DNA of 64,000 bases, taken from positions 310,001 to 374,000 of the forward strand of contig NZ_JACHCI010000002.1 in NCBI RefSeq assembly GCF_014200675.1, given 5' to 3'. The DNA comes from Janthinobacterium saanense (GTDB lineage Bacteria > Pseudomonadota > Gammaproteobacteria > Burkholderiales > Burkholderiaceae_D). The position numbers were made by a program, and so were the translations under genes. This document shows, one piece after another, positions 6,996-34,684 of the stretch. Under the pieces are notes generated by a model. It worked only from the letters and a program-made list of their open reading frames with translations, was not told the origin of the DNA and did no database searches. The number at the start of each line of letters is the position of its first letter. The first letter of the stretch is position 1.

Positions 6996-7041
6996 GTGCA
7001 ATGCCGCTTAGTTTTTTCGCTAGCCTACCATGGGGCGACCC

Positions 7042-17850: not shown

Positions 17851-17865
17851 TTCGGTAAAACCGAA
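17851..17865. promoter_or_regulatory. candidate LysR operator between amidohydrolase and lysR
   Basis: A perfect 6-bp inverted repeat with a 3-base spacer (TTCGGT-AAA-ACCGAA), which also contains a T-N11-A pattern, lies in the spacer between the divergent amidohydrolase and LysR genes. Confidence 0.5.
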
Positions 17866-17909
17866 TAGTTCCGCAGCGCAGCACCCATCGACCTTGTTTG
17901 CAGGCGGCC

Positions 17910-18806: not shown

Positions 18807-18964
18807 GGCCGCGCCGGCGATTCTTCGCCCGCAGCGAATAGTGAAAACGCTGCGCGCCTCTTTTTCCCCTTTCTCCCTTCTGACATCATCGCCGCATAGT
18901 CATTGCGACGAGGGTGATCTGTTGCATCACACGCAGTGCGACACATTGAAGAGGGAGAAACACC

Positions 18965-20416
18965 ATGCAATCGAACCGCCGCCAGTTCCTGGCCAGCGTT
19001 GTTTCCACCGCCGCCGCGCTGGCGGCAGGCCCATCGGCCCTGGCCGCCACGGCCCCGCGCGTGACAGGCAAGGCCGCCGCCCGGACCCGTCCGCTGCTGC
19101 TCAAGGGCGGCACCATCCTGACGATGGACCCGGACCAGCCCGACCTGCTGCGCGGCGATATTTTGATACACGGCAGCACTATTACCCGTATCGCCGCGCA
19201 GATCGAGGCCGGCAACGCCCAGGTCATCGATGCGCGTGGACGCATCGTCATTCCCGGCTTCGTCGACGCCCACCGCCACGCATGGGAAGGACAGCTGCGC
19301 CGCATCAATCCCAATTCCGCCGATCTGGGCAACTACATCGCCGGCACCCACCAGGCGTTCGCGCCGCATTACCGTCCACGCGACATGTATGTCGGCAACC
19401 TGCTGACGGCGCTGGGCGCGATCGATGCAGGCATCACGACCATCATCGACAACTCGCACAACAGCCGCTCGCTGCGGCATGCGCTGTCGGCGGTCGATGC
19501 GCTGCACGATGCCGGCATCCGCGCCGTGCACGCGCCGGGCGCGCCGCTGGTGGGCAAATGGGATAGCGCCAGCTGGTATGCCGACCTTGCCACCTTGCAA
19601 CAAGAGCGCTTCGGCAAGAGTGACGGCCTGCTGACGCTGGCCATGATGACCTCGGTCGACCGTGGGCAATGGGCCGTCGGCCGCCGCCTGGGCATCCCGC
19701 TGGTGACGGAATTCTTCGGCCAGGAAATGTCGGCGCAACTGCCGGCGCTGCACCGCGAAGGCTTGCTGGGCCCCGACAATATCTTCAATCACTGCACCGA
19801 CCTGAGCGAGGAAGCCTGGCAAATCCTGAAGGCTACCGGCGTGCAGGTCAACGTCTGCCCCCGTTCCGATACGCACTGGGGGCTGGGCACCGGCATCTTC
19901 GGCTACCAGGCCGCCATCGACCACGGCATCCGTCCCGGCTTCAGCGTGGACAACGAAAGCGCCTACAGCGGCGACATGTTTGCCGAGATGCGCGCCGCGC
20001 TGTACCTGCAGCGCAGCTCGGCCCTGGCGCGCAAGACCGGCGAGCATGCCAGCGCTCCGGTGGACATGCGTGCGCTGCTGTCGGCGGCCACCATCGACGG
20101 TTCCGCCGTCGCCAGGCTGGGCCAGCAGACGGGCAGCCTGCGCGAAGGCAAGCAGGCCGATATCGTGCTGATCAACACCAACGATATCAATCTGTATCCG
20201 TCGAATAACGCGCTGGGTACCGTCGTCGGCGCCGCCGAACGCAGCAATGTGGAAACCGTCATCATCGGCGGGCGCATCCGCAAGCAGCACGGCAAGCTGC
20301 TGGACCTCGACATGGCGGCCCTGCATGCCGCCACGGAAGAATCGCAAGCCTACCTGTTCAAGGCTGCCGGCTTCACGCCGGACGCCTTTGCCACGCAGTT
20401 TCAGGTGCGCGGCTAG
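18965..20416 (+). CDS. exported amidohydrolase family protein (paralogue)
   Basis: A 483-residue paralogue of the amidohydrolase at 16358-17767, with long stretches of near-identity such as DAHRHAWEGQLRRI and LLGPDNIFNHC. Unlike its sister it begins with a twin-arginine-like signal (NRRQFLASVV, hydrophobic helix, ALAA), so it probably acts in the periplasm. It shares HxH in DAHRH, the later His in NHCT and the Asp in SVDNESAYSGDMF. It also lacks the middle metal His (VTEFFGQEM). The porin gene follows after 9 bases, so the two are likely cotranscribed. A GAGGGAGAAA binding site precedes the ATG. Confidence 0.85.
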   Translation: MQSNRRQFLASVVSTAAALAAGPSALAATAPRVTGKAAARTRPLLLKGGTILTMDPDQPDLLRGDILIHGSTITRIAAQIEAGNAQVIDARGRIVIPGFVDAHRHAWEGQLRRINPNSADLGNYIAGTHQAFAPHYRPRDMYVGNLLTALGAIDAGITTIIDNSHNSRSLRHALSAVDALHDAGIRAVHAPGAPLVGKWDSASWYADLATLQQERFGKSDGLLTLAMMTSVDRGQWAVGRRLGIPLVTEFFGQEMSAQLPALHREGLLGPDNIFNHCTDLSEEAWQILKATGVQVNVCPRSDTHWGLGTGIFGYQAAIDHGIRPGFSVDNESAYSGDMFAEMRAALYLQRSSALARKTGEHASAPVDMRALLSAATIDGSAVARLGQQTGSLREGKQADIVLINTNDINLYPSNNALGTVVGAAERSNVETVIIGGRIRKQHGKLLDLDMAALHAATEESQAYLFKAAGFTPDAFATQFQVRG

Positions 20417-20425
20417 GGCGCTCAC

Positions 20426-21526
20426 ATGAAAACGGCCTGTCTTTACAGCACGCTGCTGGCCGGCTGCGTGCTTGGCGCCAGCGCGCAGGCGCAGTCCGAG
20501 GTCAGCGTGTACGGCATCGTCGACGCGGTGCTGGTCAGCGAACGCGGCGGCGCCGCTGGCAATGTGAACAAGCTCACCAGCGGCGCCAGCGCGTATTCCC
20601 GTCTCGGTTTTCGCGGCAAGGAAGACCTGGGCGATGGCTGGTCCGCGATTTTCTTGCTGGAAATGGGCATGCGTATCGACGATGGCAGCCTGGACAACAC
20701 GACCGGCCAGCTTTTCAACCGCCAGGCCTATATCGGCCTGGAAAGCCGGGACTGGGGCGCCGTCCGCCTGGGCCGCCAGCATACCTTCCTGTATTACACC
20801 CTGGTGCAGGTGGCTGATCCGTTCAGCCTCGGTTATGCGGGAACGGCGAAGAATCTTTTTCCCGTAAAAAATACGGTCCGCTCCAGCAACACCGTCAGTT
20901 ACACCTCGCCAACGCGCCGGGGCTGGACGGCCGAGGCTTCGTACAGCCTGGGCGAACAGCCGGGAGACGCGCATGCGGGGCGCCAGCTGGGCCTGGTCAT
21001 CGGCTATGCGGACGGTCCGCTCACTGTGCGCTTTGCCCACAGCACCTTGAACCAGGACGTGGCCGCCGGCGCAGTGTCCCTCGCGGCGCCCGTATCACAG
21101 GACAACGCCCGCAACAGCGTGCTGGCCATGAACTACCGCTACGCATTGTTCACCGCCTACCTGGCGTATGGCGTGGACAAGGGGGGCAATAGTTCACCCG
21201 TGCCCAATCCGGGCGCCTACGGCGTGGCCAGTGCAGTCGTGCCGTCCACGGACAGCACCGACTTGCTGCTCGGCGCCGCCATCCCAGTCGGTCAACAGGG
21301 CAGGGTGATGGCTTCGTTCATCCGCAAGAACGACAAGACGCGTTTCCAGCAAGACGCCAGCCAGTGGGCATTCGGCTACGCCCATGGCCTGTCGCCGCGC
21401 ACTACCGCCTACCTGGCCTGGGCGAAGATCCACAACCGCAATGGCGCCGCCTACACGGTGGGCAACGGCAATGAAGCAGGCTCGGGCAACAGCGCCTTCA
21501 ATCTCGGCCTGCGGCATAACTTTTAA
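20426..21526 (+). CDS. Gram-negative porin (OmpC/Porin_4-like)
   Basis: A 366-residue outer-membrane porin. It has a signal peptide ending in ASAQAQ and the betaproteobacterial start SEVSVYGIVDAVL. Typical motifs are SRLGFRGKEDLG, NRQAYIGLES and LGRQHTFLY, with a C-terminal Phe (LGLRHNF). It lies 9 bases after the exported amidohydrolase, suggesting a role in bringing that enzyme's substrate across the outer membrane. Confidence 0.9.
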   Translation: MKTACLYSTLLAGCVLGASAQAQSEVSVYGIVDAVLVSERGGAAGNVNKLTSGASAYSRLGFRGKEDLGDGWSAIFLLEMGMRIDDGSLDNTTGQLFNRQAYIGLESRDWGAVRLGRQHTFLYYTLVQVADPFSLGYAGTAKNLFPVKNTVRSSNTVSYTSPTRRGWTAEASYSLGEQPGDAHAGRQLGLVIGYADGPLTVRFAHSTLNQDVAAGAVSLAAPVSQDNARNSVLAMNYRYALFTAYLAYGVDKGGNSSPVPNPGAYGVASAVVPSTDSTDLLLGAAIPVGQQGRVMASFIRKNDKTRFQQDASQWAFGYAHGLSPRTTAYLAWAKIHNRNGAAYTVGNGNEAGSGNSAFNLGLRHNF

Positions 21527-21703
21527 GAACAGTTGAGCGATGCATGCAGAAAGTCGATACCCCCCAAACCCGGGTGCAAGATGTTTTCCCTTCGCTGCAT
21601 TGCGGAGAACCGGCTCCGCAAATAACGGCATCGCACCCCACTTACTCCGGATCCGCTTAACTCCTACGATATAACCCTCTTTAACCAACTGAACAGGCAA
21701 ATC

Positions 21704-22741
21704 ATGAACGTCACGCTTCCAACCATGTATCAACGCTGGGAAATTCCTTCGCTGGGCCTGGACCAGCTCGCACTGCGCGAACAGCCTCTGCCGCAGCCCA
21801 AGGCTGGCGAAATTATTATCGCGACCGAAGCCGTGTCGCTCAACTATCGCGACGCCGAAGTGGTCGACAACGGCATGGGCAATCCCCTGGTGTTCCCGTT
21901 CACGCCGGCTTCCGACATGGCTGGCCGCGTCGTGGCGGTGGGCGCCGGCGTGACCCGCTTCGCCGTTGGCGACCGCGTGCTGTCTGCGTATATGCCGGGC
22001 TGGATCGATGGCGTGCCGCTGTCATGGTCGGAGGCGCCCACCCGCGGCGGTCCGCTGTCAGGCGTGATGTCGCAGTATGTGGCCGATTCGGCCGAATGGT
22101 ATGTGCATGCGCCGCGTACATTGAGCGCCGCCGAGGCCAGCACGCTGCCGGTGGCGGCGCTGACCGCATGGATGGCGCTGCTTGAACTGGGCAAGCTGCA
22201 CGCCGGCCAGACGGTGGTGGTGCAGGGCACTGGCGGCGTTTCCCTGTTTGCCGTCCAGCTGGCCGCAGCCCACGGCGCCCGCGTGATCATCACCAGCGGC
22301 AGCGATGAGAAGATCGCGCGCGCCATCGCCCTGGGCGCCCATCACGGCATTAACCGCAACGCCACGCCGGACTGGCACCAGGAAGTGCTGGCCTTGACTG
22401 GCGGGCGCGGCGCTGACCACATCCTGGAAATGACGGGCGGAGAAAACGTTGCACGCTCGCTGCAGGCGGTAAGGCAGGGTGGCCGCATTTCCATCATCGG
22501 CCTGCTCGACGCCGATACCTTCACGCTGCCGATCCTGCCGGTACTGGGCAGCCGCGCCTCGATCGTCGGCATCGCCGTCGGTCCGCGCCGCGCGCTGGAA
22601 GACCTGGTGCGCGCGGTCGATCTGCTGGGTATTCGTCCGGTGATCGACGCCTCCTATGCATTCTCGCAAGTGCCGGCGGCATTCGCGCATCTGCAACGCG
22701 GCGCGTTTGGCAAGATCGTGGTGCAAGTCTCCGAAAAATGA
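21704..22741 (+). CDS. MDR-family NAD(P)-dependent oxidoreductase (zinc-free type)
   Basis: A 345-residue medium-chain dehydrogenase/reductase. It has a GroES-like N-terminal half (GRVVAVGAGVTRFAVGDRV) and a Rossmann half with QGTGGVSLFAVQLA at about residues 175-188. The cysteine cluster of structural-zinc alcohol dehydrogenases is absent, so a quinone or enone reductase-like activity is more likely than classical alcohol oxidation. The stop codon overlaps the ATG of the MFS gene (ATGA), so the two are translationally coupled. Confidence 0.85.
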   Translation: MNVTLPTMYQRWEIPSLGLDQLALREQPLPQPKAGEIIIATEAVSLNYRDAEVVDNGMGNPLVFPFTPASDMAGRVVAVGAGVTRFAVGDRVLSAYMPGWIDGVPLSWSEAPTRGGPLSGVMSQYVADSAEWYVHAPRTLSAAEASTLPVAALTAWMALLELGKLHAGQTVVVQGTGGVSLFAVQLAAAHGARVIITSGSDEKIARAIALGAHHGINRNATPDWHQEVLALTGGRGADHILEMTGGENVARSLQAVRQGGRISIIGLLDADTFTLPILPVLGSRASIVGIAVGPRRALEDLVRAVDLLGIRPVIDASYAFSQVPAAFAHLQRGAFGKIVVQVSEK

Positions 22742-23931
22742 CCAGCAAAATTCCTTCCGCCGCAGCGATGCCGGCCATCATGCTTGGGCTATTCGGCTTG
22801 TATACGCTGGAGTTTGGCGTAGTCGGCATCCTTCCTGTCATTGTAGAACGGTACGGTGTCACAATATCGGAAGCGGGCATGCTGATGGGCGTATTTGCGC
22901 TCATCATCGCTATCCTGGGACCATTCCTGGTATTGATATCGTCTCGCTATGACCGCAAGAAGGTGCTGGTGGGCGCACTGTTCGGCTTTGCCGTCTGCAG
23001 TGCGCTGTCGGCCTATGCTCCGAACTTCTCCAGCCTGATGGCGCTGCGCATCGTGCCAGCGCTGTTGCACCCGGTGTTCTTCTCGGCAGCGTTCACGGCG
23101 GCGGCCTCGCTTTATCCGAAGGAGCGGGCGGCGCATGCCATGGCGCAAGCTTTTGTCGGCACAAGCTTCGGCCTGGTGCTTGGCGTGCCGGCCACGACCT
23201 GGGTGGCGGCGCATATCTCGTATGAGGCGTCGTTCCTGTTTTGCTCTGCAGCCACGGTGATCGCTGGCATAGGCCTGATGCTGATGCTGCCAGGGCAGGG
23301 ACGTCCGGTGGCGCTGAGTTTCGGGCGTCAACTGGCGGTGCTGCGCAAACCTGCGCTCTGGCTCAACATTGTCGCCACGGTGCTGGTGTTTACTGCCATG
23401 TTCTGCGTGTACAGCTATGCGGCGCAATATCTCAAGAGCGCCACGGGCATGGACGCCACCACGACCAGCCTGGTTCTGCTGATCTTCGGCATTGGCGGTG
23501 TTTCCGGTAATTTGCTGGCAGGGCGGCTGCTCGGCCGCAATATGGTAGCCACCACGCTGCTCCATCCCGTCGCGCTGGGATTGGCGTATCTGGTGCTGCT
23601 GGCGTGCGGTAGCGCCAACCTGGGCAGCATGGCCGTCATCGCCGTACTGTGGGGAGCGACCCACACCAGTGGCATGTTGATAAGCCAGGTCTGGCTGACT
23701 TCTGAAGCACGCGAAGCACCCGAGTTCGCGACCAGCCTGTTCGTCTCGGCGGGTAACGGCGGCGTGGTGCTGGGTTCCGCCATTGGCGGCATCTTCATCA
23801 ATGCGTTCGGCTTGCAGGGCATCGTCTGGTGCGGCCTGATTTTCTGCGTGCTGTCGGTACTTGCCATCGGCGCGAAAGTTTTGCTCTACCCGGCGCCATT
23901 ATTGCCAGAAGGTGCAGTTCATGTACATTAA
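22738..23931 (+). CDS. MFS transporter (DHA1-like exporter)
   Basis: A 397-residue protein with about 12 membrane helices, typical of the AraJ/YdhP-like sugar or drug efflux branch of the major facilitator superfamily. The loop after the second helix reads SSRYDRKKVL. It overlaps the upstream oxidoreductase gene by 4 bases, suggesting that product and exporter act together on a reactive or toxic compound. Substrate unknown. Confidence 0.85.
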   Translation: MTSKIPSAAAMPAIMLGLFGLYTLEFGVVGILPVIVERYGVTISEAGMLMGVFALIIAILGPFLVLISSRYDRKKVLVGALFGFAVCSALSAYAPNFSSLMALRIVPALLHPVFFSAAFTAAASLYPKERAAHAMAQAFVGTSFGLVLGVPATTWVAAHISYEASFLFCSAATVIAGIGLMLMLPGQGRPVALSFGRQLAVLRKPALWLNIVATVLVFTAMFCVYSYAAQYLKSATGMDATTTSLVLLIFGIGGVSGNLLAGRLLGRNMVATTLLHPVALGLAYLVLLACGSANLGSMAVIAVLWGATHTSGMLISQVWLTSEAREAPEFATSLFVSAGNGGVVLGSAIGGIFINAFGLQGIVWCGLIFCVLSVLAIGAKVLLYPAPLLPEGAVHVH

Positions 23932-24012
23932 GTAGTGTGGACTGGATTGTCTGTAAACGGGTTTTCGTTTAAGCCTGCGGCGCCCGGCCTTCAGTCATGA
24001 CGTCATACGTTG

Positions 24013-24049
24013 AACGAAAGGACTGACTTATTTGAAAACAAGTCAGTCC
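24013..24049 (-). terminator. terminator of the lectin gene
   Basis: A perfect 10-bp stem (24020-24029 with 24040-24049) with a 10-base loop. On the minus strand it is followed by TTTCGTT. It lies downstream of the minus-strand lectin stop and separates it from the convergent MFS gene. Confidence 0.65.
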
Positions 24050-24080
24050 GATAGCTTACGAGCGATGGTCGCCGTGGATC

Positions 24081-24911
24081 CTATTGTGGTTCGATGATTG
24101 CACGGAAGCCAATTGCCCCCTCACCGCTATACGTCATGCTGCCGTTAAGGCTATTTCCACCGTCGCCAGAGGTGATATGCACTTCCACGACATTCTGGCC
24201 GCTACGACAGCCGAGGAGCCAGACGCCGCCCTGATGCCAGGGGGCGGAATTGCCGCCCCATTGGTTTTGCACTTGATAATTGTTGCCGGCCACTGCCTCG
24301 GCGCGGAAGCCGATAGGGCCTTCGCCGACATAGGTCATGGTGCCGTTGAAAGTCTTGCCATTGTCATCTGAGATGATATCAAGAGCCGCCACACCTTGGT
24401 CGCGGCCGCCAATTACCCATTCGCCGCCTTGATGCCATGGTGCGGAGGAGCCGCCCCATTGATTCTCAACGGAAAACACACCGCCGTCGACCAATTCGCT
24501 TTTGAATCCGATAGGACCTTCGCCGCTGTATGTCATGGTACCTTCCAAGCTATTTCCGCCATCGCTAGACTCAACGTTGATGGCAACCACATTCTGGCCG
24601 GTACGGCAACCGATGATCCATGTTCCGCCTGGGTGCCAGGGAGCTGAGTTGCCGCCCCACTGGTTTTCAACGAGATAGGTATTATTTTGCGTCAGCGTGG
24701 CGCGGAAGCCAATCTGGCCTTCACCTGCGTATTTCATCGCGCCAGTAAAGGATTTGCCACCATCGGCGGAGTTGATGTTAATGGCACTGACGTTCTGGTT
24801 GTTGCGACAGCCGATCACCCAAACGCCGCCTTCATTCCATGGCGCGGAGCTGCCGCCCCATTGATTTTTAACATGATGGAGATTATTTACGGATTTGTTG
24901 GTTTTTGACAT
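24081..24911 (-). CDS. four-repeat OAA-family (high-mannose-binding) lectin
   Basis: A 276-residue protein made almost only of four tandem ~67-residue repeats. Each opens with NQWGG(S/N)SAPW (NQWGG at residues 16, 83, 150 and 216) and ends with (Y)xGEGxIGF(R/K). This is the signature of the Oscillatoria agardhii agglutinin family of beta-barrel lectins that bind high-mannose glycans. Two-repeat (PFL) and four-repeat (MBHA, ESA-2) members are known. Repeat 3 is one residue shorter and lacks the GCRxGQN segment. There is no signal peptide. A GGAGG site 4 bases before the ATG at 24911 fixes the start. The surroundings are AT-rich, which suggests acquisition. Confidence 0.9.
   Translation of the reverse strand: MSKTNKSVNNLHHVKNQWGGSSAPWNEGGVWVIGCRNNQNVSAININSADGGKSFTGAMKYAGEGQIGFRATLTQNNTYLVENQWGGNSAPWHPGGTWIIGCRTGQNVVAINVESSDGGNSLEGTMTYSGEGPIGFKSELVDGGVFSVENQWGGSSAPWHQGGEWVIGGRDQGVAALDIISDDNGKTFNGTMTYVGEGPIGFRAEAVAGNNYQVQNQWGGNSAPWHQGGVWLLGCRSGQNVVEVHITSGDGGNSLNGSMTYSGEGAIGFRAIIEPQ
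24084..24884 (-). repeat. four tandem ~200-bp coding repeats of the lectin
   Basis: Four in-frame units of 67, 67, 66 and about 61-67 codons, each starting near the NQWGG segment. They probably arose by repeated internal duplication and have since diverged. Confidence 0.85.
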
Positions 24912-25695
24912 TATTGCCTCCAAAGTAATTTTCAGCGCGAAGAATTGTTTGTCGAACTGCATACACAATTCCTTGCCAATTAATTCTGCGCGCAACACAG
25001 CGGAGCGGCGCTGTCCCGAACAATTCTTCTCACTCAACGCTAGAAGTGCCGCAATTGTCTGCCTTTTTTTGCGGCTGAGTCTATTGAAATGTCACAATAA
25101 AAATTAACTATCGGATGATTTAAAAAATAATTTTTCAATGGGGAATCGGCAGTGCGAAGTAGAGGCGTAGTGGGCCATGATTGAAAATTCAATTGGACAA
25201 TGCGATCTATATTTGCTACCAAATGGTGTTTGAAGGTATAGCTTAATAAAGCACCTCAACACTCTGGGTACTTTAATGATAGGCATGATTTTGCATTGGA
25301 TAGGGAAACGCTGATTTATTCTCCCGAGCCGGCTCCGTGCACGGACGAGACCTGGACAATACTGGCACGTCTATAGCTACGTGAGGGTGCATAATTACAC
25401 GACTTGAAACGCATAACCCTGCGATACTATTCGCACGCGATTTAATCATAATAATAAAACAGAGAATATAACCAATTGTAGCGAGTGTAAAAAAACAACG
25501 AAATATTCAAGATAAATTTTCCACGCAAGTCCCGTTCCTGAATACTGTGTATATTAAGGTCAGTCAGGTGCATGCACGTCTTATAGCGGCAGCAGCCCGT
25601 GCTGAATCAGATGCTTGGCGAAATTTCCTGATGTGGTGATCTATCTGCGTGGTTTAATGCAAGCGCTTTGTGAATTTAGGGAGCCTATAAAAATC
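24912..25695. other. AT-rich spacer between lectin and lipid operon
   Basis: About 780 bases, strongly AT-rich compared with the rest of the window. It holds the divergent upstream regions of the lectin gene (minus) and the glycosyltransferase-led operon (plus). No gene is supported; two 60-codon frames on the minus strand (25040-25286) have no recognisable feature. A TATATT element near 25551 could be a -10 box for the operon, but no good -35 was seen. Confidence 0.45.
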
Positions 25696-26520
25696 GTGAG
25701 TATAAAACACCCCCACAAATTTACCTGTATCGCCTGGGCTTCCGGTCCCTATAAAGCGATGTTCAAAAATTTGCAGTCCGATTGCGAACGGTTTGGCTAC
25801 CCCAGCCACCTGTACGAAATAGACCAGGAATATTCCAGCTTGCTGCAGGCCTGGTGCAACCATCCGCGCATCATCCGCCAAGGAGTGGAAGATTTTGGAA
25901 CGGTTCTATATATGGATGTCGAGTGCCGTATCGTCGCGCCGATTCCGTCTTCATGGCAAGCGCCGCTGGTGTCAATACGCTGGCCGGAGCAAAAATTCTG
26001 GATCTGGTACAACTCAGGCACCGTCATGGCCGACGAGAGCTGTATTCCATGGCTCGATGCCTGGATACGCATCATCGACGAATGGAAACTGGGCGAACTG
26101 GCACGTGAAGATCACGTGCATTGGCCGGGTGACCTGTGCGATGAACTGGGGCTGGCCGCGGCCTTGGCCGCCTTTGGCGTGCGCGTGCAGACGCCACGCC
26201 TTGAATATGTCAATCGCGATACCGATGCGGAACTCGCGCGCGGTTTGTGGAGCAACCGACATACCATCATCCAGCATCCGACCCAGCATCACTGGCCCAA
26301 GGAAGTCGACCCTGTCGAGTGCAAAAAGCTGTTTGTGCAGAACTACCCTGGCGATCCGCTCGATACCGCGGACATTTTCTCCGCCGACAGTAACTTCCAT
26401 TCCCAACTGGGCTGGATCTTTGATCCCACGCAGAGAATATATGCGCCGGCCGAGTTCTGGCCCGAACATGCACGGCCATGGATAGAGGAAACAGTGCAAT
26501 TGACATCGGCCCAGCGTTGA
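25696..26520 (+). CDS. putative GT-A-fold glycosyltransferase (first gene of lipid operon)
   Basis: A ~274-residue soluble protein resembling nucleotide-diphospho-sugar transferases. It has an early beta strand (FTCIAWASG), a VLYMDVECRI strand that would hold the metal-binding DXD-like motif (here Asp74-Val75-Glu76) and an NSGTVM segment as in GT8/GT77-type enzymes. Family placement is tentative. The frame is open upstream to a TTG at 25615. The GTG at 25696 is preferred because the protein-like sequence begins there and an AGGGAG element lies upstream, though 12 bases away. Its 3' end overlaps the next open frame by up to 43 bases. The operon context suggests it glycosylates a lipid made by the following enzymes. 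Confidence 0.55.
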   Translation: MSIKHPHKFTCIAWASGPYKAMFKNLQSDCERFGYPSHLYEIDQEYSSLLQAWCNHPRIIRQGVEDFGTVLYMDVECRIVAPIPSSWQAPLVSIRWPEQKFWIWYNSGTVMADESCIPWLDAWIRIIDEWKLGELAREDHVHWPGDLCDELGLAAALAAFGVRVQTPRLEYVNRDTDAELARGLWSNRHTIIQHPTQHHWPKEVDPVECKKLFVQNYPGDPLDTADIFSADSNFHSQLGWIFDPTQRIYAPAEFWPEHARPWIEETVQLTSAQR

Positions 26521-27299
26521 ATAAATCGCCTGCAAATTTGGATACGCAGCAGGAGACGCATGCTTCTCTGAGCATGCGTCTGTGCGCCTGGTCAGTACAT
26601 GCCTTCACCGCCAGCGGCGTCGTGTTCGGCCTGCTGGCCTTGCTGGCCGTCGAGCAAGCCGATTGGCGGGCGGCGTTTGGATGGCTGTTGGTGGCCCTGG
26701 TGGTGGATGCGATCGATGGTCCGATTGCCCGCATGATACACATTAAAGCGGTGCTGCCCCGTTTCGACGGCGGCACGCTCGATCTACTGGTGGATTACCT
26801 TACCTTTGTGATCGTGCCGGCGTTGGTGCTGTATCACTCGTTGATTTTGCCGGAATCCTTGCGCTTTGTCGGAGCCAGCGCGATCATGGTTACTGCGTTG
26901 CATCATTACTGCAACCTGGACATCAAGACCCAGGACGGCTACTTCGTCGGTTTTCCCGCTTTCTGGAATATTGCCGTATTCATCATATATCGCTTTCCTC
27001 CATCGCCCTGGGTAGCTGCAGTGATTGTTTTCACGTTCTGCTTATTAACCTGCGTGCCGATAAAAGTCGTGCATCCTTTTCGCGTCAAAAAATTTCGGTC
27101 GCTCTCTTTTGCTTTTGTTGCGCTGGGATTGATCGCAGCCAGCATTGCGCTGCTGCAACCGGAACTGCAAGAGAATTGGTTGCTGGCGGCTAACTTGCTG
27201 CCGCTGGCTTATTTCACCTTGATCAGCCTGCGCCGCACCCTTGCAGGCCCGGACTCCCTAGCGGTGAAATATGTGGAAGCCGATCCTCCACATGCGTGA
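26478..27299 (+). CDS. pcs: phosphatidylcholine synthase-like CDP-alcohol phosphotransferase
   Basis: A ~273-residue membrane protein with about seven helices. It shows the CDP-alcohol phosphotransferase motif from Asp77: D-x2-DG-x2-AR-x12-G-x3-D-x3-D. The 12-residue gap after AR and neighbouring words (VHAFTASGVVFGLLAL, DGPIARMIHIKAVLP, DYLTFVIVPALVLY, GFPAFWN) match phosphatidylcholine synthase (Pcs). Pcs joins choline to CDP-diacylglycerol. The exact alcohol or lipid partner here is not proven. The ATG at 26478 would overlap the upstream gene; an ATG at 26574 (MRLCAWSVHAF) or a TTG at 26538 are alternatives. The stop overlaps the desaturase gene. Confidence 0.75.
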   Translation: MDRGNSAIDIGPALNKSPANLDTQQETHASLSMRLCAWSVHAFTASGVVFGLLALLAVEQADWRAAFGWLLVALVVDAIDGPIARMIHIKAVLPRFDGGTLDLLVDYLTFVIVPALVLYHSLILPESLRFVGASAIMVTALHHYCNLDIKTQDGYFVGFPAFWNIAVFIIYRFPPSPWVAAVIVFTFCLLTCVPIKVVHPFRVKKFRSLSFAFVALGLIAASIALLQPELQENWLLAANLLPLAYFTLISLRRTLAGPDSLAVKYVEADPPHA

Positions 27300-28263
27300 T
27301 CTTTTCTTCTTTACACAGCAGCGCGATCCGCATATACAACGGCGCAGGGACATGTTGCGCCGCTATCCGCAGATTCGCAGCCTGTTTGGCCCCAACCCCT
27401 GGTCATTGCCGTTGATTGTCGCTCTCGTAGGCTTTCAGCTGGGTTTGGCGTCGCTGGCACAACGAGCGGCATGGTGGCAGGCTCTTCTTCTGGCCTGGGT
27501 AGTCGGCGCTTATGTTGCCGCATCCTTGTTTGCCATGATTCACGATGCCGGCCATTTCCTGATAGTGCGCGCGCGTATCGGAAACTATTTGGCTGCATGC
27601 TGCGCGAATCTACCGCTGCTCATGTGGAATGCCGTGCCATTCTTCCGTTATCACCTCTGGCACCATCGGGCTTTGGGCGATTATGAACGCGACGTTGGCG
27701 TGCCAACCGAGGCTGAGGCAGTTTGGGTCGGCAACAGCGCCTGGCGCAAGGCCGTTTGGTTGGCGTTCTTTCCCGTGTTCCAGGCTCTGCGCACGCATAA
27801 GTTCCCGGTTAGCAAAGCCTATTGGAGCGGCTGGATGCTGGTCAACGCCGCCATACAGTTCGCGGCGAATTTCCTGATCCTGCAGCTGCTGGGCTGGCAG
27901 GCATTGATATATCTTGGACTATCGATCTATTTTTCGCTCGGCTTCCATCCCTTGGGAACGCGCGTAGTGCAAGAGCATTTTGTCATCGCCGAAGGACAGG
28001 AGACGAATAATTTTATGGGCTGGGCCAATCTTTTCGAATGCAATTTCGGTTATCACGTCGAACATCATGATTTCCCCAGTATTCCCTGGAACCGTCTGCC
28101 GCGCCTGCGGTGTATCGCCCCCGAGTTTTATGCCGGTCAGGCCAGTTTTCCTTCGCGCCTGCAATTGATGTTCCAATTCATATTCGACCCGCGATGGTCG
28201 GTCTTCCACAATACCGTCCGGCTGCAAACGCAATCGCCATCCACGCCCCCGTCGGCATCATGA
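27271..28263 (+). CDS. sphingolipid delta-4 desaturase (DES1)-like membrane fatty acid desaturase
   Basis: A 330-residue integral-membrane di-iron desaturase. The histidine boxes are HDAGH (91-95), HLWHH (128-132) and HVEHH (262-266), with an additional HPLGT near 226. The context (YHLWHH, DVGVPTEAE, HPLGTRVVQEHF, GYHVEHHDFPSIPW, then IAPEFY) is that of eukaryotic DES1-type sphingolipid delta-4 desaturases more than of bacterial acyl-lipid desaturases. It may act on a long-chain amide or ceramide-like lipid. An alternative ATG at 27292 overlaps the upstream stop by 8 bases. A GGTGA element precedes the ATG at 27271. The stop overlaps the next ATG (ATGA). Confidence 0.75.
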   Translation: MWKPILHMRDLFFFTQQRDPHIQRRRDMLRRYPQIRSLFGPNPWSLPLIVALVGFQLGLASLAQRAAWWQALLLAWVVGAYVAASLFAMIHDAGHFLIVRARIGNYLAACCANLPLLMWNAVPFFRYHLWHHRALGDYERDVGVPTEAEAVWVGNSAWRKAVWLAFFPVFQALRTHKFPVSKAYWSGWMLVNAAIQFAANFLILQLLGWQALIYLGLSIYFSLGFHPLGTRVVQEHFVIAEGQETNNFMGWANLFECNFGYHVEHHDFPSIPWNRLPRLRCIAPEFYAGQASFPSRLQLMFQFIFDPRWSVFHNTVRLQTQSPSTPPSAS

Positions 28264-29279
28264 GCGGCATGCTGCGTCTGGCGATCATCGGTGCAGGCTT
28301 TATGGCACGTCGCCGGGCTAGGGCGTTTGTCGCCACCGGACGCGCGCACATCGTGGGCATCGCCGCGCGCCGCCTTTCCAGCGCGAAAACCATAGGGGCG
28401 GAACTGGGTTGCCCGCATTGCTTTGACGATTATCGGCGCCTGCTGGACTGTAAGCCGGACGCCGTCTTGATTGAAGTGCCGCACCTGGTGCAGGACGAAC
28501 TGGTGTTGTGGGCGCTCGGACAGGGTTTGCCTACCTTGATCGGCGGCCCATTATCGGTGTCCGTGCAGGGCGGCGAAAAGATACTGGGCGCGGCACGGCA
28601 TGCCGGAGTGCTGCTCGAGTGCGGCTTCGAAGCTCGTTACAAGGCTGTGTGGGAAACCGCGAAAGAATTGCTGCACGCGGGACGCATTGGCCAGCCTATT
28701 GCCGTGCAATCCATTGCGTTATGGAATGGCAAATCGGAAAGCTGGTACTACGACCAGGCGGCAAGCGGTGGCATGCCGTTGACACATATGAGCTACGCCT
28801 TCATTAATCCGCTGCGGTGGATATTTGGCGAACCTCTGCGTGTCTCTGCCTTTGCCAATCGGATCAAGCAAACAGCCGCCGATTATGTTCGCGAGGAAAC
28901 TTGCGTTGCCAATCTGCTGTTTCCTCAGCAGGTAATGTGTTCAATGCTGGCCGGTTATGTCAAATCCGGCAGCGGCGATGCTTGGGGTCTTACGATAGTC
29001 GGCACGGAAGGCACGATGGAGCTGCAGCCAACGGAAATGGAGAATGGTTCGCTGCGTATTGCTTGTGGCGAAAAAGCCGAAACATTTGAATTTTCCCAGG
29101 CACAGGATGCGTTTATTGCTCAAGCACATGCATTCATCGATTCGGCTTGGACGAATGCGCATTGCCGCAATGGGCCCGAGGACTGCTTGCGTGATTTGCA
29201 GGTGGCTATAGCCATCAGCGTGTCGGCGCGGGAAGGGCGCTCCATAGAACTTTTTCAAGATTTCCGGCCGTTTTCTTGA
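28260..29279 (+). CDS. Gfo/Idh/MocA-family oxidoreductase-like protein with altered active site
   Basis: A 339-residue protein with an N-terminal Rossmann fold (LAIIGAGFMARRRARAF) and a C-terminal alpha/beta domain typical of the Gfo/Idh/MocA dinucleotide-dependent dehydrogenases. The usual catalytic EKP motif is replaced: the segment reads TLIGGPLSVS (Gly95-Gly96-Pro97), so the conserved Lys is absent. The protein may be a non-redox or unusual member. The ATG overlaps the desaturase stop (ATGA), so it belongs to the same operon. Its role in lipid or glycolipid modification is inferred only from position. Confidence 0.75.
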   Translation: MSGMLRLAIIGAGFMARRRARAFVATGRAHIVGIAARRLSSAKTIGAELGCPHCFDDYRRLLDCKPDAVLIEVPHLVQDELVLWALGQGLPTLIGGPLSVSVQGGEKILGAARHAGVLLECGFEARYKAVWETAKELLHAGRIGQPIAVQSIALWNGKSESWYYDQAASGGMPLTHMSYAFINPLRWIFGEPLRVSAFANRIKQTAADYVREETCVANLLFPQQVMCSMLAGYVKSGSGDAWGLTIVGTEGTMELQPTEMENGSLRIACGEKAETFEFSQAQDAFIAQAHAFIDSAWTNAHCRNGPEDCLRDLQVAIAISVSAREGRSIELFQDFRPFS

Positions 29280-29542
29280 GGTTCTTTCAGTACGCCGACA
29301 TAAATGAGGGGTTACTCTCGCATCCATCGTTCTCTCTAGTGTGTTCAAATTCGCACCGTGTTAATGTCGTTCAACTGCGACATGATTTTGCGCCTTTTCG
29401 GTTTGGCGACATCAATATGAAACTTCACGGGAAGACAGGCAAAAATACTGCAGGCTTACCCTTGCAATAACACTATCGTTGCCTATGCTTAGGGATAGTC
29501 TGCGCGTCGACCCATGCCGCGCCACTTCATTATGGCAAGGTT

Positions 29543-29899
29543 ATGGCGACGACATCTAGGAACGCACGCGGCCCACGGCTCGGTACGCAATTTCGAGGCA
29601 AACTTGCTGCGGCCTATGGACAGCGGGGCGTCGGCCCGAACAGTCTATGGTACGTCTACAGCCCACGCGGCCAATGTGACTGGGTGCTTCGAAGTGATCT
29701 TGAATGGGACCACTTCGTACTGATTGAGTCGGACCCTACCATAATGTCCTGCAGCTCAGAGCAGAGCGGAGAAACCGCGCGACATCTAGTGGTACCTTTT
29801 CTGCAGTTTTCGCAAAAACCCCACGGTGTAGTCGCAAAACACCCCAGAATGATGTCGGCGTACTACGGATGGGATGACAGTGTTGATGAACATCCCTAA
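29543..29899 (+). CDS. hypothetical protein with TnsA-like N-terminal segment, possibly truncated
   Basis: A 118-residue frame whose middle (LWYVYSPRG, DWVLRSDLEWDHFVLIESDP) resembles the N-terminal endonuclease domain of TnsA-like proteins, including the S-x-L-E and E-x-D-P words. The remaining C-terminal part does not fit, and the protein is about half the usual length. It may be a decayed fragment of a Tn7-like element or a host relative. No TnsB/TnsC gene or end repeats are nearby. The flanks (29280-29542 and 29900-30108) are AT-rich and show no gene. Confidence 0.35.
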   Translation: MATTSRNARGPRLGTQFRGKLAAAYGQRGVGPNSLWYVYSPRGQCDWVLRSDLEWDHFVLIESDPTIMSCSSEQSGETARHLVVPFLQFSQKPHGVVAKHPRMMSAYYGWDDSVDEHP

Positions 29900-30108
29900 C
29901 TTAGGTCGTGGTTTTACATAATATAAATTATGCGAAGTTTTGTCCATAGGATGAAAAATCCTTGCTTGCTTTGATTCCTAAGTCGCATATGCGATTTCCT
30001 ACCCTACGGCACGGCAACTTCACAGAGCTTGCATGCTGTGCTATGGGCATTCCATCGGCCGACTTATCCCGCGTTCTGCACCGTGATGATAAGCGCACGA
30101 CCTGAGCG

Positions 30109-31266
30109 TCAACCCTCTGCCGCCCGCAAGCCAGTCAGGAACGAACGCAAATCCTCCGCGTAAAGCTGCGGCTGCTCCCATGCCGGAAAATGGCCGCCGT
30201 GGGGCTGTACTGTGTATTGCTGCACCTTGTAAAACCGCTGCGCCCAGGTTTTTGGAGCGATTACGAGATCCTTGGGCCACATGCAAACTGCCGTTGGCAC
30301 CTTCACGTAATCGCCAGCACGCAGCGGCGCGCGATGGTGGCGTGCTTCGTAGTAGTAACGCATGGAGGACGCGATGGTCTCGGTAGCCCAGTAAATATTC
30401 AGGTTATCGAGCAGCATATCTGGCGGGAAAACCTCGAATAGATCGCTGCCGGCATCGCTCCAGAAGTGAAATTTCTCCAGGATCCAGCTGGCCAGACCGA
30501 CCGGTGTGTCGTTCAGCGCGTAAGCGACGGTTTGCGGCCGGGTGGCTTGCAGGTGCAGATAAGCGCCTTCATCCGCGCTCCATTGTTGCACCTTGGCCTG
30601 GTAGGCGATTTCCTCGGCCGTCAACGGCGCCGTTGTTGCGTCCAGCGGCGGATCGACAACGGCGGAAATATGCAGGCCGCGCACCGCGTCCGGATATGCC
30701 AGGGCCATGCGGGTACCGACGCCGGCGCCGAGGTCGGTTCCGGAGACCATATAGTCGCTGTAGCCCAGTCCCTCGCTCATCAGGCGGTGAAATAGCGCCA
30801 CCGTCTGGATCTGATTGGGCGACGATGGCCGGCTGGAATAACCGAATCCTGGGTGGGCAGGAATAACGACATCAAACGCAAGTTCGGCACTGCCGCCAAA
30901 AGCGGCGGGATCGGCCAGCATGGAAGCGAGCTTGCCATACTCGACAAAGCTGGATGGCCAGCCATTGGTCAGCAGCAAAGCTTGCGGCGATGGGCCTTTT
31001 CCCTTGAAATGCAGGAAATGCACGTCAAAGCCGTCTATCGTGGCACGGAAGTGCGGCAGCGAATTGATGCGTGCCGCCGCCCTCTGCCAGTCGTAGCCCG
31101 TCTTCCAATAATCGACCAAGGCCCGCAGCGGCTTGGCTGACATGCCATAACTCCAGTCTGCGGCCACTGCATCGCACCAGCGCGTGCGCCGCAGACGCTG
31201 CAGCAATTCGGCAGCAAATGATGGATCAAATGGCGATTGCCATGGCGTAACTTTCACTTTGCTCAT
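30109..31266 (-). CDS. epoxide hydrolase family protein
   Basis: A 385-residue alpha/beta hydrolase with the N-terminal epoxide-hydrolase domain (residues ~1-110, DYWKTGYDWQRAAARIN). The hydrolase fold follows with an NGWPSS oxyanion region, the nucleophile Asp in SGTDLGAG, two lid Tyr in the cap region and the catalytic His in GGHFPAWEQP. It opens epoxides to diols; substrate unknown. The ATG at 31266 is chosen; the open frame extends to 31374. It is divergent from a LysR gene that probably controls it. Confidence 0.85.
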   Translation of the reverse strand: MSKVKVTPWQSPFDPSFAAELLQRLRRTRWCDAVAADWSYGMSAKPLRALVDYWKTGYDWQRAAARINSLPHFRATIDGFDVHFLHFKGKGPSPQALLLTNGWPSSFVEYGKLASMLADPAAFGGSAELAFDVVIPAHPGFGYSSRPSSPNQIQTVALFHRLMSEGLGYSDYMVSGTDLGAGVGTRMALAYPDAVRGLHISAVVDPPLDATTAPLTAEEIAYQAKVQQWSADEGAYLHLQATRPQTVAYALNDTPVGLASWILEKFHFWSDAGSDLFEVFPPDMLLDNLNIYWATETIASSMRYYYEARHHRAPLRAGDYVKVPTAVCMWPKDLVIAPKTWAQRFYKVQQYTVQPHGGHFPAWEQPQLYAEDLRSFLTGLRAAEG

Positions 31267-31373
31267 AATGTCCAATTCAGCATATTCATAACGGCCATTG
31301 GCCGGTCTGGCGTACACTGGTAAGCATAGCTTCACGACTAGTGGGATGGAAGCGAGAAATTCTGTGCTGCTCA

Positions 31374-31386
31374 TTAGAAAAACTAA
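31374..31386. promoter_or_regulatory. T-N11-A LysR-type site before the GcvA-like regulator
   Basis: A TTAG-AAAAA-CTAA dyad forming a T-N11-A pattern lies directly before the LysR start codon, in the spacer shared with the divergent epoxide hydrolase gene. Its position suggests autorepression. Confidence 0.35.
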
Positions 31387-31389
31387 ACA

Positions 31390-32316
31390 ATGTCACGTAT
31401 CCCTCTGCAATCCTTACCCGCCTTCAAGGCTGTCGCCGAGTTGGAGAATATGCGCGCTGCAGCCGCCCTGCTCCATCTGACGCCGAGCGCAATCAGCCAG
31501 CAAATCAACAAGCTGGAGGAGCGGCTAGGTTTTGCCGTGTTTGCCAGGCAGGGCCGCCGGGTGCTGCTGAACGATGCGGGCAAGTTATTACTGCGTAGCG
31601 TGGAGGCAGCGCTGAACGAAATTGAACAGGGGGTGCAAGCGGCGGCGGCGATTGCTAACGCCCAGGCCAGGACGGTGGTGCGGATCACCGTGGTGCCTTC
31701 TTTTGCGCAGCGTTGGCTGTTGCCGCGTCTGGCGCGATGGCGATCGCTGCACCCTGATATCCGGCTGCAAATCGACACTACCCAGCAAACCGTGGACTTG
31801 CAGCGTACAGGCTTGCATGTGGGCATACGCGCCGGTAGTGGCACATGGGCCGGGCTGAGTGCGGAAGCGCTATGCGACCTTGATCTGCCCCTGTGCGTGC
31901 TGGCTTGCCGCGAGGCAGCGCAGCGGGTGGCTGGCAACTTGCCGGCGGCTATCGCCAGCGAGTCCCTGCTTGGCGATCCAGAGCTATGGGCCAGCTGGTT
32001 CCAACTGGCCGGGATTGCCAGCGAAGCTCAGCCAGCGGCGACATTCGCCGACAGTGGATTGATGCTGCAAGCGGCCGAACAGGATATTGGACTGGTGCTG
32101 GCCCGAGGTCTGTACACGGTCGACGCGCTGCGCGATGGGCGGCTGGTGCAACTTACCAGCGTGGTCCTGCCGATTCCATCCCCGCAGCGCTTCTTCCTTG
32201 TCTTTCCGCCATCGCTACAGGATTGGCCGCCATTGACCGCCTTGCGCGCATGGCTGCTGGAAGAAGTCCGGCTATCCAGAGTTGAACTTGCAGAACGGGG
32301 CTTGCTCCCGCCATAA
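31390..32316 (+). CDS. LysR-family transcriptional regulator, GcvA-like
   Basis: A 308-residue LysR-type regulator of the GcvA subgroup. The helix-turn-helix covers residues 5-62 (LPAFKAVAELENMRAAAALLHLTPSAISQQI) and the effector domain includes WLLPRLARW. It is divergent from the epoxide hydrolase gene with 123 bases between the start codons, so it probably regulates it. Confidence 0.85.
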   Translation: MSRIPLQSLPAFKAVAELENMRAAAALLHLTPSAISQQINKLEERLGFAVFARQGRRVLLNDAGKLLLRSVEAALNEIEQGVQAAAAIANAQARTVVRITVVPSFAQRWLLPRLARWRSLHPDIRLQIDTTQQTVDLQRTGLHVGIRAGSGTWAGLSAEALCDLDLPLCVLACREAAQRVAGNLPAAIASESLLGDPELWASWFQLAGIASEAQPAATFADSGLMLQAAEQDIGLVLARGLYTVDALRDGRLVQLTSVVLPIPSPQRFFLVFPPSLQDWPPLTALRAWLLEEVRLSRVELAERGLLPP

Positions 32317-32675
32317 CATCCGCTTTGTCTGCCCCGCCCTGCCCGGCCTGGCCATGGGGCGGCAGGGCAGCGGCAAGGCAATATGGGAAACAGTGTTTTG
32401 TTATAGGCAAGATAATTTCATTCCCGCTCTTTTTCGGTGCGCATTTTCTCCGCATCCGCTGCCCTTCTCTGCCCTATTTTGGGGCAATACCACTATGTTC
32501 TACAGAACGAACTGGTATTGATCTTTCACGCTATTATCCCCACGCTTTATAAAATTGGTATTCTCATATTGAATAGAATTTAAAACCAGTTGACTACCAC
32601 CTGCAACACTTGCAATCTGGAAATTCCACTGGATTTCATCCGGATCGGCACAATAAAACTAACCAGGAGCAGTAC
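32317..32675. other. intergenic region upstream of the chitinase gene
   Basis: A GC-rich stretch after the LysR stop contains an 8-bp inverted repeat (GCCCTGCC/GGCAGGGC near 32336-32368) without a T run. An AT-rich stretch (about 32500-32600) follows and probably holds the chitinase promoter. No gene is supported. Confidence 0.4.
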
Positions 32676-34058
32676 ATGAATAGAACAGTGATGAACACGT
32701 TGATCGTTGGCTTGCTGGGCGGCGGTTTGACCGCCTGCGGTGGCGGCAACGGGGACGCGCCAGCTTCCAGCAAGTTGCTGGCGGACACGGTGACCAATGC
32801 GGCGGTCGCCTGCTTCACACCGTGGAACAGCGGCACCGCTTATACGGCCGGCGGCCAGGCCAGCTACAACAACGTCAATTACACCGCCAATTGGTGGACG
32901 CAAGGTAATAACCCAGCGAGCAGCAACGGCGGTACGGGCACGGGACAACCCTGGACCTCGGCGGGCGAGTGCGGCACTGGAACACCAACGCCTACTCCGA
33001 CACCGACACCGACGCCCACCCCAACACCGACCCCAACGCCTACCCCAACACCGACCCCGACTCCTACACCAACACCAACGCCGACGCCGACCCCGACACC
33101 AACGCCGATTGGCGGCCTGGCCAAGCATGCGCTGATCGGCTACTGGCATAATTTCTCCAACCCTAGCGGCAATACCTACCCGATCAGCCAGGTCAGCGAC
33201 GACTGGGATGTGATCGTGGTGTCGTTCGCCGACAATGCCGGTAACGGCAATGTCAGCCTGACCATCGATCCATCGGCCGGCTCGGAAGCGCAATTCATTG
33301 CTGACGTGGCGGCCAAGCGGGCCAAGGGCAAGAAAGTGATCCTGTCGCTGGGCGGGCAAAACGGTTCCGTGTCCGTCGGTTCGACGGCGGAAGCCACCAA
33401 CTTCACCAATAGCCTGTACGCCATCATCAGCAAATATGGTTTTGACGGTATCGACCTGGATCTGGAAAACGGCGTGACGCAAGGCGCGCCTATCCAGACC
33501 TATCTGCCGATCGCCGTGAAAAACCTGAAAGCCAAAGTGGGTAGCAATTTCTACCTGTCGATGGCGCCGGAATGGGTGTATGTGGAAGGCGGCTATACCA
33601 GCTACGGCGGCATCTGGGGCGCTTACATTCCCATCATCAATGCCTTGCGCAATGAGCTGACCGTGCTGCACCCGCAGTATTACAACAATGGCGATGTCTA
33701 CACGCCATACGCATCGGGCGCCCTGAAGGCCGGTTCGGCCAACCAGCTGGTGGCCACGGCGCGCATGCTGACCGAAGGCTTCAACTATGGCGGCAATACC
33801 TTCGCCGGCTTGCGTCCGGACCAGGTCGCCTTTGGCGTACCGTCAGGCCCCAGCTCGGCCGGCTCGGGTTTCACCACCAATGCCGACGTCGCCAATGCCC
33901 TCAATTGCCTGACGCGCCTGCTGAACTGCGGCACCATCAGCCCTAGCCAGGCGCGTCCAGACTTCCGCGGCGTGATGACGTGGTCGATCAACTGGGACCG
34001 CCACGACGGCTATAACTTCTCCGTTCCTGCCAAGAACGTGCTGAAGACCCTGCCGTAA
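32676..34058 (+). CDS. chitinase lipoprotein: CBM5/12, Thr-Pro linker, GH18
   Basis: A 460-residue secreted enzyme. It begins with a lipoprotein signal and lipobox (LTAC, then GGGNG), so it may be anchored in the outer membrane. A chitin-binding CBM5/12 module follows ([20 protein letters not shown], ~residues 45-98), then a linker of about 21 Thr-Pro pairs (~103-144), then a GH18 domain with the catalytic DGIDLDLE at 257-264 (acid Glu264). It hydrolyses chitin to oligosaccharides. The ATG at 32676 has AGGAG upstream. It is followed by a terminator and appears monocistronic. Confidence 0.9.
32982..33108 (+). repeat. hexanucleotide tandem repeat encoding the Thr-Pro linker
   Basis: About 21 degenerate ACNCCN units in tandem. 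Such a tract can expand or contract in frame by replication slippage and so vary linker length. Confidence 0.9.
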
Positions 34059-34075
34059 TCAGCTGATACTGTAAT

Positions 34076-34116
34076 AACGCCTGCATCTCTGTGTTGGAGA
34101 TGCAGGCGTTGTTATT
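34076..34116 (+). terminator. rho-independent terminator after the chitinase gene
   Basis: A perfect 14-bp stem (34076-34089 with 34097-34110) with a 7-base loop is followed by GTTATTT. It lies 17 bases after the chitinase stop codon. Confidence 0.9.
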
Positions 34117-34261
34117 TCTGCCCTGGAAATACAAGTCTATTGAAGTAAATCAACTAATAGACTGTGCCTATTGATTCGTTTGGAATATTTTACTATCTTT
34201 TGTAAATGCGAATCGTTACTATCTAAATCAAGGATTACAACGTTTTACAAAGGAGTCAGCC

Positions 34262-34678
34262 TTGATCACCGCCATCAAAACAGTTAGCCAGGTTGTTACG
34301 CATATGTCGATCGCCTTCGGCCTCGCCTACTTGCTGACGGGTTCCTTGGCGCTCGGTGGCCTGGCTGCCATTATCGAGCCTGTCCTGAACGTCGCCCTGC
34401 TGCCCAAACATGAAAAAGCCTGGCACGCGATCCGCCACCGCTACGCCGGCACACGCTTTGGCCTGGCTGCCGTGGCCGGTGAAAAAATCAGTCAGACCTT
34501 GCTGCATATCAGCGTCGCATTTGGCGTGCTGTACTGGGCGACAGGTTCGATGGCCTTCGGCGGTTTTCTGGCGATTGTCGAGCCGATCTGCAATGTGATT
34601 GCGCTGCCGATACACGACCGCATGTGGGAAAGGCTGCGTACCCGGCTGGAAAGCCGTGGCGCCGCCCTCGCCGCCTGA
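34262..34678 (+). CDS. tandem DUF2061 membrane protein
   Basis: A 138-residue inner-membrane protein made of two related DUF2061 units (TVSQVVTHMSIAFGLAYLLTGS and KISQTLLHISVAFGVLYWATGS). Each has two hydrophobic helices, so the protein is an internal duplication. Function unknown. The start is a TTG at 34262, supported by an AGGAG element 7 bases upstream. AT-rich leader DNA precedes it. Confidence 0.8.
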   Translation: MITAIKTVSQVVTHMSIAFGLAYLLTGSLALGGLAAIIEPVLNVALLPKHEKAWHAIRHRYAGTRFGLAAVAGEKISQTLLHISVAFGVLYWATGSMAFGGFLAIVEPICNVIALPIHDRMWERLRTRLESRGAALAA

Positions 34679-34684
34679 TCCTGA

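Follow-up and report, generated by a model that had tools for sequence, protein, structure and literature searches.

A tightly packed four-gene cassette of putative membrane-lipid function in Janthinobacterium saanense and Rugamonas rivuli

A stretch of 64,000 nucleotides from Janthinobacterium saanense (contig NZ_JACHCI010000002.1, positions 310,001 to 374,000; the whole stretch is called the window) was analyzed for a compact run of genes at positions 25696-29279. The interval is filled by four genes on the same strand in the order glycosyltransferase-like (GT-like), phosphatidylcholine synthase-like (Pcs-like), DES-family desaturase, and Gfo/Idh-fold protein. The data support a core of a lipid head-group enzyme and a desaturase-type membrane enzyme that moved together with GT-like and Gfo/Idh-fold partners. 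We give about an even chance to the interpretation that the genes form a compact membrane-lipid cassette that has moved horizontally, in which a Pcs-type enzyme would make a head-group lipid and a repurposed DES enzyme would act on a non-ceramide chain. No earlier description of this gene set was found among the titles and abstract beginnings listed in searches of the open-licence literature. The features of the cassette are as follows.

25696..26520, + strand: gene 1, glycosyltransferase-like orphan, 274 aa, GTG start, no family match, counterpart in R. rivuli
26478..27299, + strand: gene 2, Pcs-family CDP-alcohol phosphatidyltransferase, 273 aa from the first ATG (NF045887 and motif; alternative start 26574)
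27271..28263, + strand: gene 3, DES-family membrane desaturase or hydroxylase, 330 aa (Lipid_DES, FA_desaturase; conserved start 27292)
28260..29279, + strand: gene 4, Gfo/Idh/MocA-fold protein with altered catalytic motifs, 339 aa (PF01408, PF02894, PF22725)
25675..29251, + strand: DNA block common to Rugamonas rivuli, taken as the cassette extent (blastn against locus L012, 6455-9972)

A scan of a genome collection with a four-row desaturase alignment returned at least 589 stretches, at least 544 of which encode relatives; the 80 best loci were retained. One of these 80 loci, from R. rivuli (Oxalobacteraceae), encodes a desaturase that is 78% identical together with its three partners, in unchanged order (identities of 89% for the GT-like, 69-74% for the Pcs-like, and 77% for the Gfo/Idh protein). 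The three partners were found in the available flanks of none of the other 79 desaturase loci (tblastn, E 1e-4). A comparison of the 64-kb window with the 17-kb R. rivuli locus gave a single blastn match (E 1e-4) that pairs 25675-29251 with 6455-9972 at 78.4% identity over 3585 columns; the shared DNA begins about 20 bases before gene 1 and ends within the 3' end of gene 4. The initial annotation, which had proposed a four-gene operon, had named a lack of conserved synteny in any relative as the finding that would speak against it, and such synteny is present in R. rivuli. Because gene order and junctions are conserved in a second genus and the flanks are not, the four-gene run is real and more than a chance arrangement. 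The ratio of nonsynonymous to synonymous substitution rates (dN/dS) between the two species is 0.066, 0.223, 0.142, and 0.143 for genes 1-4. As the ratio is low for all four genes, all are under purifying selection and their products, the Gfo/Idh protein included, are kept in both lineages. Genome searches were conducted on samples of each group, and in some genomes only part of the first-look candidates was scored (e.g., 6 or 7 per genome in the GT and Gfo/Idh searches, and 18 in the Lipid_DES search of the J. saanense genome). Within this scope, the desaturase was found in 1 out of 195 genomes of the family (the window's own), and the GT-like gene in 2 out of 392 genomes of the family (the window's own and R. 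rivuli) and in 1 out of 349 genomes of the phylum (the window's own).

The four genes might alternatively be loosely related passengers that ride together on a mobile segment and have separate minor roles. The accessory, variable region with its mobile-element end (described below) fits this explanation, as do the neighboring lectin and epoxide hydrolase genes, which belong to families unrelated to the cassette. We nevertheless regard it as very unlikely: the DNA shared with R. rivuli is bounded just before gene 1 and inside the end of gene 4, the last junction is identical in both species, and the first two overlaps can be equal in length in both.

The junctions themselves bear out part of the tight coupling by overlaps that had been described initially: the coordinates, the gene order, the close packing, and the ATGA junction into gene 4 at 28260, identical in both species, all stand. 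Gene 1 starts with a GTG (25696), and the R. rivuli open reading frame begins at the corresponding codon. The choice of start codon affects two of the three overlaps. The Pcs-like and desaturase genes overlap in either case, by 29 nt from the first ATG (27271) or by 8 nt from a Met at 27292 that is common to both species; the overlap in R. rivuli is also 8 nt, and the comparison favors 27292 as the likely start. The overlap between the GT-like and Pcs-like genes is 43 nt with the first ATG of the latter (26478), likewise 43 nt in R. rivuli, but is uncertain because a later in-frame Met common to both species (26574 in the window) leaves no overlap and the R. rivuli protein lacks 17 residues between the two candidate starts. 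For RNA families, tRNAs, promoters, and terminators near the cassette, the searches gave nothing, or no more than in shuffled sequence.

The protein encoded by gene 3 scores 42.2 bits against Lipid_DES (cut-off 23) and 78.7 bits against FA_desaturase (cut-off 29.7), and the R. rivuli copy scores 37.6 bits against Lipid_DES. The Lipid_DES score above cut-off upholds the initial assignment to the DES family. All three His boxes (HX3H, HX2HH, and HX2HH) are retained and the structure model (mean predicted local distance difference test, pLDDT, 91.7) displays a confident membrane desaturase/hydroxylase fold. Five FA_desaturases and one Lipid_DES match were identified in the J. saanense genome. Weak NCBIfam matches to CrtW (24.2 bits) and to the arginine hydroxylase GntB (21.5 bits) lie far below cut-off; one DES relative scores GntB at 36.4 bits. 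Sequence searches of the PDB found no DES relative.

The two cassette desaturases were compared with 81 relatives (78 of the 79 other scan loci and loci L008-L010). Taken as a guide, both cassette copies deviate at 19 columns with a conservation of 90% or more among the relatives. At D143, Y248, Y249, L290, and R314 all 81 relatives differ from both copies, and P119 and W148 are also changed; examples of the changes are D143G, Y248F, L290Q, and R314N. H226 and H236 are kept like the boxes, and two conserved His residues outside the boxes (H84 and H293) are lost. Gene 3 appears to descend from bacterial relatives of sphingolipid desaturases and to have changed at many fixed positions. Because many fixed residues are changed while the His boxes are kept, the substrate has probably shifted away from dihydroceramide.

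In the phylogenetic analysis, the two cassette desaturases group together (100/100), and the stem leading to them is long (1.63 changes per column in one tree and 2.12 in the other). The tree that includes four FA_desaturases of the J. saanense genome has tip lengths of 10 for these proteins, two of which hang unresolved among the DES rows, and a starred split (98/93) groups the same-genome FA_desaturases on the cassette side together with 35 other rows. Without them, the cassette desaturases join the relative from L009 (97/84), with a warning from the program of long branches meeting. The initial annotation had named a position among ordinary acyl-lipid desaturases as evidence against its proposal; the domain content (Lipid_DES) does not bear out such a position, and the tree does not decide it.

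Gene 2 encodes the proposed head-group enzyme. Its five best NCBIfam matches are all Pcs models, led by NF045887 (208.7 bits, cut-off 300) and followed by matches of 179.5, 179.1, 170.9, and 124 bits (cut-offs 400, 350, 440, and 400). In the available text of a review, the Pcs motif is printed as DX2DGX2ARX12GX3GX3D (PMC3972451), one letter apart from the form DGx2AR...Gx3Dx3D that matched in all 21 sequences compared here, 20 of them with the 12-residue spacing. Gene 2 carries the motif DGx2ARx12Gx3Dx3D intact (DGPIAR-x12-GGTLDLLVD). Pcs relatives matched at E 1e-40 in 42 out of 319 genomes, and 20 including that of J. saanense were fetched with 1.5-kb flanks; the gene 2 protein is 32-40% identical to the other 19, of which 18 have the 12-residue spacing and the remaining one has 11. 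The other three cassette genes were found in the 1.5-kb flanks of none of these 19 relatives. Within its own genome, gene 2 is the sole strong match (the second scores 21.4 bits). The NCBIfam matches and the intact motif with Pcs spacing agree with the original Pcs-family call, although the scores are below the cut-offs.

Gene 4 encodes a protein with an N-terminal Rossmann domain and a C-terminal alpha/beta domain that match PF01408, PF02894, and PF22725 above cut-off (54.1, 58.5, and 60.6 bits), and an N-terminal GAGFMA dinucleotide-type motif is present. The earlier description as Gfo/Idh-like holds for both domains and fails for the catalytic motifs, which are lost: both copies have GGP in place of EKP and do not retain the His and Asp further downstream, which together with the Lys of EKP we take to be the catalytic residues (THMSYAFIN and THMSYTFIN in the cassette copies versus, e.g., VDMNIHDID or INLSHDID in relatives). 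The nearest Gfo/Idh relative reported in 289 genomes of the phylum scores 83.5 bits (at most seven candidates scored per listed genome), and all four of the nearest relatives reported carry EKP. The gene is not decaying, as indicated by its dN/dS of 0.143. Its product is probably not an ordinary dehydrogenase and could serve in binding, regulation, or other sugar chemistry.

The protein encoded by gene 1 has no Pfam, NCBIfam, or PHROG match and no significant PDB match (best E 0.22, to a kinase, and 0.75 by profile), and its structure model (pLDDT 35.5) is too poor for a fold search. The label glycosyltransferase-like, as first given, goes back to features seen by eye, the motifs YMDVE, YNSG, DEL, and QHPTQHHW, which we take to be GT-A-like; neither the family searches, the PDB searches, nor the unusable model lent it backing.

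A membrane-lipid function of the cassette would proceed in three steps. In the first, judged by enzyme family and motif, the Pcs-type enzyme would couple CDP-diacylglycerol with a small alcohol, for which choline from the surroundings is the most likely candidate, to give phosphatidylcholine or a close relative. In the second, the DES-family di-iron enzyme may introduce a double bond or a hydroxyl group into a chain, close to the head, of this lipid or of a related lipid that is not a ceramide. In the third and weakest step, the GT-like and Gfo/Idh-fold proteins might add or handle a sugar or another head-group part. The strength of these proposals falls from the phosphatidylcholine-like product to the action of the desaturase on it and to the involvement of a sugar. 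A bolder version, which we hold only tentatively and consider on balance doubtful, is that the product belongs to a new class of bacterial lipids: a phosphatidylcholine-like lipid decorated with a sugar, its chain oxidized by a DES-family enzyme recruited to a glycerolipid, encoded by a self-contained mobile cassette and involving a Gfo/Idh-fold protein that lacks the usual dehydrogenase residues.

A number of points weigh against a membrane-lipid function. Gene 2 scores under every curated Pcs cut-off, and choline, or indeed any lipid, as substrate is a deduction from sequence. The relatives used in the conservation analysis were selected for similarity to the gene 3 protein and with two peptide patterns, which themselves contain three of the changed columns (230, 232, and 263), so the count of 19 is a guide and not a test. 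The trees do not place the cassette desaturase within or beside the DES family or relative to the desaturases of its own genome. A GT role of gene 1 is without database or structural support, an AONS-family enzyme of the genome (see below) could make a sphingoid-like base, and two independent copies of the cassette are known, no more.

The same changes in the desaturase might reflect a small-molecule pathway apart from the membrane, in which the desaturase-fold enzyme would oxidize a substrate linked to an amino acid, a sugar, or an alcohol, and the Pcs-like enzyme would modify a natural product with a phosphatidyl group or another group derived from a CDP-alcohol. The weak CrtW and GntB matches show that other substrates occur within the superfamily, the changed columns suggest a new substrate, and sugar chemistry commonly involves GT-like and Gfo/Idh folds. 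The desaturase still scores above the Lipid_DES cut-off, however, and the shared block consists of four genes with no peptide-synthetase, polyketide, or exporter gene among them, so that we judge this pathway unlikely.

A true sphingolipid pathway, in which the cassette would modify ceramide-type lipids, whether obtained from a host or produced by way of an unrecognized serine palmitoyltransferase (SPT), was weighed against the gene content of the genome. A single-protein search of the J. saanense genome for ceramide synthase gave nothing convincing, and a six-row profile of putative ceramide synthases gave nothing at E 0.1 in this genome, R. rivuli, and two congeners; all three control genomes matched the profile (G380 and G384 supplied profile rows, G443 did not). 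Four AONS-family enzymes were found in the J. saanense genome (BioF, Kbl, an autoinducer synthase, and one without assignment) and none of the four passes the SPT cut-off. The fourth (L097 1393-2586; G000:C5:291501-292565) is below every NCBIfam cut-off and matches a KBL/AONS enzyme in the PDB at 283 bits and an SPT at 239 bits. Its gene is located, judged by eye, near sugar-polymer-type genes. Overall, the genome does not look like that of a sphingolipid maker, and a sphingolipid operon was rejected as a candidate since the ceramide-synthase and SPT searches gave nothing convincing. Of the choline- or sphingolipid-like lipid suggested in the initial annotation, the sphingolipid part is therefore without backing in this genome, although ceramide-type lipids might be taken up from outside. 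The SPT match of the fourth AONS-family protein speaks for a sphingolipid pathway, as does the position of DES relatives beside SPT genes in other bacteria, where 3 of the 6 neighboring SPT candidates scanned pass the curated SPT cut-off. The pathway is still quite improbable, given that neither cassette genome has a ceramide-synthase relative, that no SPT model is matched over its cut-off and the AONS-family protein is closer to KBL/AONS, and that the family-wide residues D143, Y248, and Y249 (81 out of 81 relatives each) are lost in both cassette desaturases. The expectation that a DES1-type desaturase would be out of place in this setting was partly right. In the J. saanense genome, neither a ceramide-synthase relative nor an SPT above cut-off was found, but in bacteria at large DES-type proteins are common (at least 544 of at least 589 stretches) and some are located beside SPT.

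Several loci of DES relatives displayed further features. In L085 (4999-9032), genes for a fatty acid hydroxylase, an SPT above the curated cut-off, a putative ceramide synthase, and a DES protein are found in a row on one strand, and the SPT gene overlaps the next gene by 4 nt. Bacterial cerS is described in the available text of PMC11324152 as always in an operon other than spt; this separation may not hold for L085, nor for L094, where the SPT scores lower. In L092 (9782-11178), the gene next after that of a DES relative encodes a prokaryotic diacylglycerol kinase (PF01219), and a putative ceramide-synthase match with one TAG inside is located elsewhere in that genome. The DES proteins of L026 and L038 are nearly identical (tips 0.007 and 0.010) in metagenome-assembled genomes labelled Azovibrio (Pseudomonadota) and Bacteroides (Bacteroidota), the result of either mis-binning or recent transfer.

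The cassette is located in an accessory, variable region beside a mobile-element end. In a congener (G679), both flanks of the region are in place (window 17806-23897 and 32553-35544) and the 8.7 kb between them are replaced by 3.8 kb of other DNA; the variable region thus spans 23898-32552, with other genes between the same conserved neighbors in G679 (L141 8038-11847). One further feature follows the cassette directly.

29289..29865, strand not applicable: remnant of a mobile-element end just after the cassette, with 24-nt inverted repeats at 29289-29312 and 29841-29864

The first repeat arm starts nine bases past the last cassette stop, and on two Janthinobacterium plasmids a stretch adjoining a tyrosine recombinase gene is 86.5% identical to positions 29762-29865. 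A plasmid home of the cassette was considered and rejected: the desaturase and the GT-like protein had no match in plasmid records, the 8 records for Pcs and 29 for Gfo/Idh are all below 60% identity, and no cassette DNA was found. A phage home was searched for with the GT-like gene alone, which had no match in phage records or viral contigs. The G+C content of the cassette genes (0.547-0.573) is below that of the left neighbors (0.604-0.666). Low G+C is a weak sign of transfer and adds little here because the adjacent lectin gene is lower still (0.538), the right neighbors have 0.586-0.643, and the R. rivuli copy (0.610-0.656) is close to its own neighbors.

The lectin gene (24081-25037, - strand) is the immediate left neighbor of the cassette within the variable region and encodes an OAA-family lectin with four repeats (NF050073 406 bits, cut-off 150; PF17882 in four stretches). 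Elsewhere in the window, a GH18 chitinase-like protein with a CBM5/12 domain and a very long Thr-Pro repeat linker is encoded at 32610-34058 (+ strand), and the left end (1-2000) falls to a G+C of 0.42 compared with 0.60 overall.

If the cassette does act on membrane lipids as proposed, DES-type enzymes would not be tied to sphingolipids, one of them having moved to another lipid with its fixed residues changed, and these residues would offer a direct way to learn substrate choice in the DES family. The cassette would then act as a transferable unit that alters the head groups and chains of the membrane, and it could account for the gain of a phosphatidylcholine-like lipid by single strains of a genus. 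Phosphatidylcholine is reported in one Janthinobacterium species and as absent in five others in the available text of PMC7922066; that the cassette causes this difference is conjecture.

Each of the three assignable proteins resembles a known enzyme and departs from it. Gene 3 shares with the delta-4 sphingolipid (dihydroceramide) desaturase DES the Lipid_DES and FA_desaturase domains, the three His boxes, and the membrane fold; it differs from bacterial DES relatives in its 19 changed columns, its long stem, and the lack of an SPT or ceramide-synthase gene nearby. Gene 2 has the CDP-alcohol phosphotransferase motif of bacterial Pcs with the Pcs 12-residue spacing, yet its score of 208.7 bits is short of the cut-off of 300 and a desaturase of the cassette kind adjoins none of the 19 Pcs relatives. 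Gene 4 has both domains and the dinucleotide-type motif of Gfo/Idh/MocA oxidoreductases such as inositol 2-dehydrogenase and aldose-aldose oxidoreductase, but GGP in place of EKP and no catalytic His and Asp. For the cassette as a whole, the closest published logic in the available text of PMC11324152 is that of the Caulobacter ceramide phosphoglycerate genes. Those lipids differ in being ceramides that need SPT and ceramide synthesis, CC_0202 is located outside the gene region, and the available account makes no mention of a Gfo/Idh gene (no occurrence of "gfo"). The likeness is that in Caulobacter, too, a protein with a CDP-alcohol-type phosphotransferase domain (CC_1159) and a desaturase-type enzyme, the DesA-family hydroxylase CC_0202, serve one membrane lipid class (PMC11324152).

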